The notes beneath the pieces are model-generated. The model had not been told where the DNA came from and made no database searches. It saw nothing but the letters and a program-made list of their open reading frames with translations. The position numbers were made by a program, and so were the translations under genes. Positions 39,730 through 41,615 of a stretch of DNA of 64,000 nt are shown here, in pieces. The DNA comes from an uncultured Paracoccaceae bacterium (GTDB taxonomy: Bacteria > Pseudomonadota > Alphaproteobacteria > Rhodobacterales > Rhodobacteraceae): assembly GCA_937895435.1 (NCBI GenBank), contig CALAXT010000042.1:1-64000 (forward strand), in the 5' to 3' direction. Numbering within the stretch: the stretch's first letter is position 1; each line of letters begins with the position of its first letter.

Positions 39730-40296
39730 CTAGCGGGTGGGGGCCTGTGCGCGGTCATGCAGCCCATAGTCGCGATGAACATGAAAGAGATTGCATGAAA
39801 CCACGCCCGGAGCGTGACGCTGTGCGTTCAGGGCAGCCCGCGCAGCGTCTGCCCCCACCAGGTCTTGCATCGTTAAAAAGGCCCCCGTGCGGTTCACACT
39901 TTCGAACCCGTCGCTGGCAGGGGCCTGGTTCAAATGCGACACCAACAAAAAGTTGTCGGTAGCAATATCGGCATAGGTTTCCATCTGTGGTGGCGCGCCA
40001 TGTTCGCTGTGTCCCACCAATGCTGCCACGCGAATGCGATACTGTGCGAAGTGCCGATGGCGTCCGGCTGATTGCGAAACCTTGTGGTTGGGGTCCAACC
40101 TCCAGCCGGCAATCGCGGTTTCATCGCGCCACAGTTGGTGCGACAGCAGCGCATCGTCCCGCCCAATTGGGCGAAAACGGTCGATCCAGACCATGCCATC
40201 ATGCTGGGTTAAAACAGGGCGCAGACGATCGACATGTTCAAAATAATGGCCCATGTGTCCGGGGTAGGGCTGAACCTCAAAGAAAACCGCCTGCAT
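39730..40296 (-). CDS. Antibiotic biosynthesis monooxygenase (ABM) domain protein
   Basis: A 188-residue protein whose N-terminal 100 residues look like the ABM dimeric alpha-beta barrel: FEVQPYPGHMGHYFEHVDRLRPVL, then WIDRFRP and HQLWRDETAIAGWR. This fold includes heme-degrading and quinone-forming monooxygenases but also many uncharacterised proteins. The C-terminal half repeats a similar strand pattern (FLLVSHLNQ...ARAALNAQRH), so it may be a two-domain form. No catalytic residues can be assigned. It is monocistronic, between the TRAP system and the candidate small RNA. Confidence 0.6.
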   Translation of the reverse strand: MQAVFFEVQPYPGHMGHYFEHVDRLRPVLTQHDGMVWIDRFRPIGRDDALLSHQLWRDETAIAGWRLDPNHKVSQSAGRHRHFAQYRIRVAALVGHSEHGAPPQMETYADIATDNFLLVSHLNQAPASDGFESVNRTGAFLTMQDLVGADAARAALNAQRHAPGVVSCNLFHVHRDYGLHDRAQAPTR

Positions 40297-40400: not shown

Positions 40401-40430
40401 AAAAAAAGCGCCCGAACAACGTCCGGGCGC
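40401..40430 (-). terminator. Rho-independent terminator (T7 run)
   Basis: The stem GCGCCCG (40408-40414) and CGGGCGC (40424-40430) is followed on the minus strand by seven T residues. It ends either the predicted small RNA or a long rlmB 3' untranslated region. Confidence 0.88.
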
Positions 40431-40482
40431 CAGGAGCGGAACGAGGGACAGAAGATCGGCACAGGGGTTCCGGCCCTGGGCA
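40401..40482 (-). ncRNA. Candidate small RNA with own promoter and terminator
   Basis: On the minus strand a TATAAG -10 (40486-40491) and a weak TTGTGG -35 (40510-40515) precede a predicted start near 40480. The RNA would open with a long hairpin, CCAGG-GC-CGGAAC paired with GTTCCG-CT-CCTGG (40430-40479), with a 24-base pyrimidine-rich loop. It ends with a rho-independent terminator: GCGCCCG and CGGGCGC stems and seven T (40401-40430). I do not recognise an RNA family. The remainder of the 40297-40607 gap contains the triple repeat and the promoter of the ABM gene. Confidence 0.5.
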
Positions 40483-40552
40483 CTTCTTATAGATAGGCAC
40501 CATTAGCGCCCACAAAAGACCCTCGCACGCAGGCGTGAAGAAATTCTTGACG

Positions 40553-40600
40553 TTTGCAAAAGACTGCATTTGCAAAAGACTGCATTTGCAGAAGACTGCG
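40553..40600. repeat. Three tandem 16-bp repeats after rlmB
   Basis: TTTGCAAAAGACTGCA occurs at 40553-40568 and 40569-40584, and a variant with two changes at 40585-40600. The array begins eight bases after the rlmB stop. TGCAAA and TTTGCA are inverted repeats within and across units. The function is unknown. Confidence 0.85.
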
Positions 40601-40607
40601 GCGGGTT

Positions 40608-41405
40608 TCAGGTTTGCCCCCCCAGGTCAAAGTGCCGCCCCGCCGCATAAAGCGCCACCGCTGCGGCGTTTGACACATTCAAAGATCCAAACCCACGCGC
40701 AGGTGTGATCGACACCAAATGGTCACAAGTATCACGCGTTTTTTGCCGCAAACCCGGCCCCTCGGCCCCCATCACCAGCCCGATTGGGCGGCCCGACAGC
40801 GCGCCAAGCTGCGCCTCAAGTGTCGCTGGGGCCTCGCCATCCAAACCCAATAGCGTAAAGCCAATGCCGCGCAGCGTTTCCATGGCATCGGCCAGATTGC
40901 GCAGGCGCAGATAGGGTTGGCGTTCTAATGCGCCACTGGCGCTTTTGGCCAAGGCTCCGGTTTCGGGGGCGCTGTGGCGCAGTGTGCCAACCACGGCGCG
41001 GGCGCCAAACACCTCGGCAGACCGCAGAATCGCACCGACATTATGCGGATCGGTTACCTGATCAAGCAGCACCACCAGCGGCGCCCCCCGCCCAGACACG
41101 CAGCATTCCTCCAGCGTGCCCCAAACCAAGGGCTTGACCTCAAGCGCTGCCCCTTGGTGGACAGATGATGGGTCAATCGGCACATCGAATTTGCGTGGGT
41201 CAACAATTTCAGGGTCAATCCCTGCCGTGGTGATGGCATCTGACAATTTGTCATAGGCGTTGCGTGTGACCACCAGCCGCAGCCGCTGGCGCGCTGGGTT
41301 CAAAAGTGCATCGCGCACCGCATGCAGGCCAAACAGCCAGACTGTTTCCGCAGCCGAGGCGCGGCGCTGGCGTTCTTTGTCAATCACCCAATCCGGCTTT
41401 TTCAT
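40608..41405 (-). CDS. rlmB: 23S rRNA (guanosine-2'-O-)-methyltransferase RlmB
   Basis: This SpoU-family (SPOUT) RNA methyltransferase of 265 residues adds a 2'-O-methyl group to G2251 of 23S rRNA. The N-terminal substrate-binding domain starts with WLFGLHAVRDALLNP, and the three SpoU motifs are clear: LDQVTDPHNVGAILRSAEVF, IGLVMGAEGPGL and GSLNVSNAAAVALY. ATG 41405 with AAGGAAG upstream gives the MKKPDWV start and is preferred over ATG 41432. It is divergent from tRNA-Tyr. Confidence 0.9.
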   Translation of the reverse strand: MKKPDWVIDKERQRRASAAETVWLFGLHAVRDALLNPARQRLRLVVTRNAYDKLSDAITTAGIDPEIVDPRKFDVPIDPSSVHQGAALEVKPLVWGTLEECCVSGRGAPLVVLLDQVTDPHNVGAILRSAEVFGARAVVGTLRHSAPETGALAKSASGALERQPYLRLRNLADAMETLRGIGFTLLGLDGEAPATLEAQLGALSGRPIGLVMGAEGPGLRQKTRDTCDHLVSITPARGFGSLNVSNAAAVALYAAGRHFDLGGQT

Positions 41406-41492
41406 CTTTGACTTCCTTAATTTCGGCGACAATGGCGTTTGCGTGGCAGGGGTGCAAGGGGCAGGGCGCGCGCAGGGGGTAGAAAAACCGCC

Positions 41493-41531: not shown

Positions 41532-41615
41532 GGGCGACGTGCTGCAAGGTGCGGCAGCGGACTGTAACTCCGCCGAGGAGACTCACGCCTGGTTCGATTC
41601 CAGGGTCGCCCACCA
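41532..41615 (+). tRNA. tRNA-Tyr (anticodon GTA)
   Basis: The acceptor stem GGGCGAC (41532-41538) pairs with GTCGCCC (41605-41611), followed by A and an encoded CCA (41613-41615). The anticodon arm is GCGGA-CTGTAAC-TCCGC with GTA in the loop. A long variable arm with GAG/CTC pairing and a TTCGATT T-loop between CCTGG and CCAGG mark it as a class II tRNA, as expected for bacterial tRNA-Tyr. Confidence 0.95.

Follow-up and report, generated by a model that had tools for sequence, protein, structure and literature searches.

Results

The locus downstream of rlmB

The window, i.e. the whole stretch of 64,000 nucleotides analysed here, comes from an uncultured Paracoccaceae bacterium. On its minus strand, 126 nt after the gene rlmB, lies a small regulatory RNA (sRNA) gene. 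Its promoter, the structured 80-nt RNA and a terminator ending in seven T are all within positions 40520-40401 (Table 1). Three head-to-tail copies of the 16-bp unit TTTGCAAAAGACTGCA lie between rlmB and the sRNA promoter. A tRNA-Tyr gene stands just upstream of rlmB, and a tRNA-Tyr seems to be near rlmB in Rhodobacter sphaeroides as well. After the sRNA, the usual place of a CoA-binding gene is taken by an ABM-domain (antibiotic biosynthesis monooxygenase) gene.

Table 1. Positions in the window of the sRNA, its elements and the neighbouring genes.
Feature	Position	Strand	Remarks
ABM-domain gene	39730-40296		
sRNA gene (StsR-type)	40401-40484	-	covariance-model match 40402-40485; predicted 5' end ~40481-40484, the start being placed from the promoter; 3' end within the T run
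Intrinsic terminator and T7	40401-40431	-	stem 40431-40408, T7 40407-40401; 99% of cells paired in 98 sequences
Hairpin S1	40459-40481	-	40474-40478/40462-40466 and 40480-40481/40459-40460; read from the sequence
Long-range pairing S2	40437-40472	-	CGGAAC 40472-40467 with GTTCCG 40442-40437; would be pseudoknotted with S1
Unpaired core CTGTCCCTC	40443-40451	-	probable seed; complementary to mraZ leaders
Initially annotated outer stem	40430-40479	-	CCAGG 40479-40475, CCTGG 40434-40430
Initially annotated -10, TATAAG	40491-40486	-	
RpoH-type -10, CCTATCT	40491-40497	-	part of the two-block motif; 14-bp spacer
RpoH-type -35 block GTCTTTTGT	40512-40520	-	two-block motif, 157 upstream regions
16-bp repeats	40553-40600		three copies
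rlmB	40608-41432	-	SpoU-family rRNA methyltransferase; PF00588 (E 2e-32), PF08032
tRNA-Tyr	41532-41615	+	

All the elements described by the initial annotation were read on the minus strand at the places it gave them. Folding of the 82-nt strand gives -33.9 kcal/mol, and shuffled sequences give -24.65 ± 2.58 (z -3.59; none of 200 shuffles as good). Its rho-independent terminator, also initially annotated, is the strongest among five terminator-like sites nearby, and the helix is kept in relatives. The initial proposal was right in that an independent, structured sRNA closed by a terminator stands past rlmB. A coding reading was rejected: GGAAC and the core are separated by anything from 19 to 25 nt, which would not fit a shared reading frame.

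Distribution of the family

By DNA search alone, matches were found in 27 of 61 genomes, all Rhodobacteraceae, with E-values down to 3e-10; two DNA matches without the core (L025 and L027) look like chance. A covariance model, R1, was built from an alignment of 22 relatives. The window sequence, which scores 73.4 bits (E 5e-15), is itself one of these 22, so that the independent evidence lies in the matches in relatives. R1 gave 98 matches in 100 sources. Scanning whole genomes with such a model, as had been suggested with the initial annotation, recovered the family in 104 of 120 Rhodobacteraceae (E down to 2e-18), and no match was found in 75 genomes of other alphaproteobacterial families. 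Given this conservation, at the DNA level and with the covariance model, a chance origin of the feature is untenable.

The match is single in all but one of the 104 positive Rhodobacteraceae genomes. The exception, G125, has two divergent matches (38.8 and 31.1 bits), the better of which is without GGAAC. The 16-base core pattern occurs in at least 119 stretches, nearly all from Rhodobacterales among the matches listed; three others (L033, L095 and L146), in which the flanking structure is absent, look like chance.

The sRNA had been said to match no known RNA family. This holds for Rfam, which gave no match in the window at the gathering threshold and chance-level scores only at a relaxed one. 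The suhB/mmgR family (RF00519), likewise a short, terminator-ended sRNA, reached 13.9 bits for a threshold of 41, and it and the other alphaproteobacterial sRNA families stayed at chance level. The claim does not hold for the published StsR of R. sphaeroides, with which the family is very probably to be identified from locus, promoter and complementarity (see below).

A conserved RpoH-like promoter

A two-block motif, CTTTnAA-N14-CCYAnnT, was fitted to 157 upstream regions of relatives, with the 14-bp spacer present in 132 of them. In the -35 block, the core positions are C (150/157), T (156/157) and T (135/157); in the -10 block, the key A is found in all 157 regions and the key T in 156. The window version is CTTTTGT-N14-CCTATCT (40518-40491, minus strand). 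TATAAG, initially taken as the -10, is thus not the conserved one, and a sigma-70 promoter scan of the region found none.

The conserved promoter resembles RpoH promoters, and on the strength of the motif a dependence on RpoHI/RpoHII is predicted. RpoH promoters of R. sphaeroides have a highly conserved A-12, and RpoHI depends critically on T-9 (PMC3441632); the near-invariant A and T of our motif would be these two positions. The published -35 of these promoters, TTG, is matched partly, TTT being commoner in the family. The genome of the window encodes Hfq and a pair of RpoH-like sigma factors, of which one scores under the curated cut-off of the model.

Covarying stem, invariant core and possible pseudoknot

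Covariation supports a 5' hairpin, S1, different from the long hairpin proposed initially. Double-sided changes were seen at all 10 consensus pairs of S1 in 98 sequences. The covariation score of S1 plus terminator was 0.546, against 0.205 for shuffled and at most 0.125 for slid alignments; these 98 sequences had been aligned to the structure beforehand, and an independent MAFFT alignment gave the same result. RNAalifold also predicted S1 unprompted. The long hairpin was rejected: relatives do not preserve its outer stem, CCAGG/CCTGG, which shows no excess of covariation. As to its inner part, CGGAAC and GTTCCG are conserved, but would form a long-range, pseudoknot-type pairing (S2), with CGGAAC in the loop of S1.

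Five pairs of S2 are invariant among 22 sequences and, for that reason, out of reach of covariation; the two sides of the edge pair show a weak association (Fisher p 0.006, with no correction for relatedness). S1 and S2 together would form an H-type pseudoknot, leaving CUGUCCCUC unpaired. S2 is however not indispensable, since the core is retained in three or more divergent members from which GGAAC has disappeared. The pyrimidine-rich CUGUCCCUC segment had been singled out from the start, and rightly so, as it is the most conserved part of the sRNA; within the core, TGTCCCTCGTTCC is invariant in the 22-sequence alignment. The window copy has CUUCUGUCCC where most relatives have UUCACUGUCCC.

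Relation to StsR of R. sphaeroides

Published StsR is an Hfq-binding, RpoHI/RpoHII-dependent sRNA (PMC8307010, PMC8625941), which base-pairs with both UpsM and the dcw leader and makes rpoE mRNA less stable (PMC8307010, PMC8625941). It is described as a trans-acting orphan RNA and adjusts cell-division genes under stress. StsR was formerly named RSs0827, and UpsM, upstream of mraZ, is RSs0682 (PMC8307010).

Among our genomes, G075 is R. sphaeroides, as its PufL is identical (282/282) to that of solved R. sphaeroides reaction centres. In strain 2.4.1 the homologue of the window sRNA lies directly after rlmB, between this gene and the CoA-binding gene, at 858.1 kb (chromosome I, 858,052-858,137), and mraZ is found 163 kb earlier, at 694.9 kb. 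The 145 serial steps from RSs0682 to RSs0827 over these 163 kb would fit a numbering of successive intergenic regions; apparently it is these, and not the RSP genes, that the RSs numbers follow. A search of the literature on RSP_0826-0828 found no description of the locus. On the basis of map position, RpoH-type promoter and the 11-12-nt complementarity to the UpsM/mraZ leader, this homologue is very probably StsR. The window feature is, with high probability, the local orthologue of this stress-induced base-pairing sRNA: both have an rlmB-adjacent locus, an RpoH-type promoter, a terminator-ended RNA of similar size and the invariant core, which has complements in the UpsM/mraZ leader, 7 bp long in the window's genome. 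The window copy differs in that the downstream CoA-binding gene is absent and a site on rpoE is not evident.

Complementarity to the UpsM/mraZ leader and possible sites in rpoE

The mraZ leader of R. sphaeroides contains GGGACAGTGAA inside UpsM and GGACAGTGAAGG just before mraZ, which are exact 11- and 12-nt complements of the sRNA core. When the whole sRNA was compared with the leader, a 12-nt match was reached in 2 of 2000 shuffles. Among 43 Rhodobacteraceae mraZ leaders, GGGACAG is present in 21 (about 2 expected) and clusters at two places, close to the start of mraZ and immediately ahead of the UpsM terminator; it is also found in 2 of 14 leaders outside the Rhodobacteraceae. Other leaders have, just before the UpsM terminator, GGGACGAGGG, complementary to CCCUCGUUCC with one G-U. 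The enrichment of GGGACAG is not independent evidence, because this heptamer is Shine-Dalgarno-like, the leaders share ancestry and conservation is higher in other elements of theirs, 74 other heptamers being more enriched. TTCATACAGGC, for instance, is found in nearly all 43 leaders (e.g. L149, L188) and is far more conserved than the sRNA sites.

UpsM and the dcw 5' leader are a partner and not a relative of the sRNA, UpsM being an RNA derived from a 5' UTR and encoded separately. In the window's genome too, GGGACAG stands just before the UpsM terminator, and this 7-bp CUGUCCC/GGGACAG match at the conserved site hints faintly that StsR may pair with the leader there. The best complement in this mraZ leader is unremarkable, with a duplex energy no better than that of shuffles.

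StsR is reported to target rpoE mRNA just after the start codon. Two congeners of R. sphaeroides have GGGACGG at about nucleotide 19 of rpoE; the rpoE sequences compared are from congeners, as the search for rpoE-chrR in G075 gave no match although congeners have it. No convincing sRNA site was found in rpoE of the window's genome. A duplex search against rpoE gave long-gapped, uninformative pairings.

In several genomes the sRNA is linked to its putative mraZ target cluster, the two being about 16-21 kb apart on the same contig (G062, G067, G066, G031, G006, G005, G009 and G032).

Discussion

We described a conserved sRNA that is most likely the local StsR, a sound yet unsurprising result. 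A conserved trans-acting family of Rhodobacteraceae could occupy the same locus without being StsR, and have other main targets. The length predicted for the window copy from promoter and terminator (~80 nt, against 72 nt reported for the StsR transcript) and the weak target pairing in its own genome would favour this, but map position, promoter type and the R. sphaeroides leader complements all fit StsR, and we consider it improbable.

Still less credible is a cis-acting leader or attenuator with a conditional terminator. It would act on the downstream gene, mostly that of the CoA-binding protein, which is the immediate same-strand successor of the RNA in 90 of 103 relatives. The RNA is nevertheless kept in the other 13, which lack this gene there, and in the window, where an ABM-domain gene follows. 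Moreover, conservation peaks in an unpaired core and not in a switchable antiterminator, and StsR was published as an orphan working in trans. The trans-acting mode proposed by the initial annotation is very probably right. Finally, that the feature is just the 3' end of the rlmB mRNA, terminator plus fold with no transcript of its own, is suggested by its place shortly past rlmB on the same strand and has almost no chance of being true, since a conserved promoter immediately precedes the first stem, and RNA and promoter are retained in relatives although rlmB is often 700-2000 nt off. Of 85 loci, 46 have rlmB no more than 700 nt upstream, and in many others it is within ~2 kb.

As StsR, the RNA is most likely made under stress, pairs with the UpsM/mraZ leader and restrains division genes. 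In heat, oxidative or stationary-phase stress, an RpoH-type sigma factor would transcribe the ~80 nt, which would fold as S1, its loop GGAAC pairing with the downstream GUUCC, so that CUGUCCCUC stays accessible. Helped by Hfq, this segment would pair with UpsM within the mraZ leader; a second partner, in many relatives, may be the mraZ ribosome-binding region. Such pairing may expose RNase E sites, so that fewer transcripts read through into the dcw genes for division and cell wall. For the window organism, expression, pseudoknot and targets are predictions. More speculatively, and with rather less than even chances, StsR could be a family-wide single-copy device, in which an RpoH promoter drives an H-type pseudoknot RNA and target pairing by CUGUCCCUCGUUCC competes with the GGAAC/GUUCC helix, the pseudoknot thereby gating the circuit from stress to cell division.

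Relative to the literature we found, three things are new: a model that covers the whole family, a corrected account of structure and promoter, and the finding that leaders throughout the family are complementary to the sRNA. StsR, for which Rfam has no entry, thus gains a family model comprising promoter, covarying stem, invariant core, single copy and synteny. The pseudoknot and the mraZ-leader sites become directly testable, and a circuit that we found described only in R. sphaeroides would be extended to most Rhodobacteraceae, marine roseobacters included.
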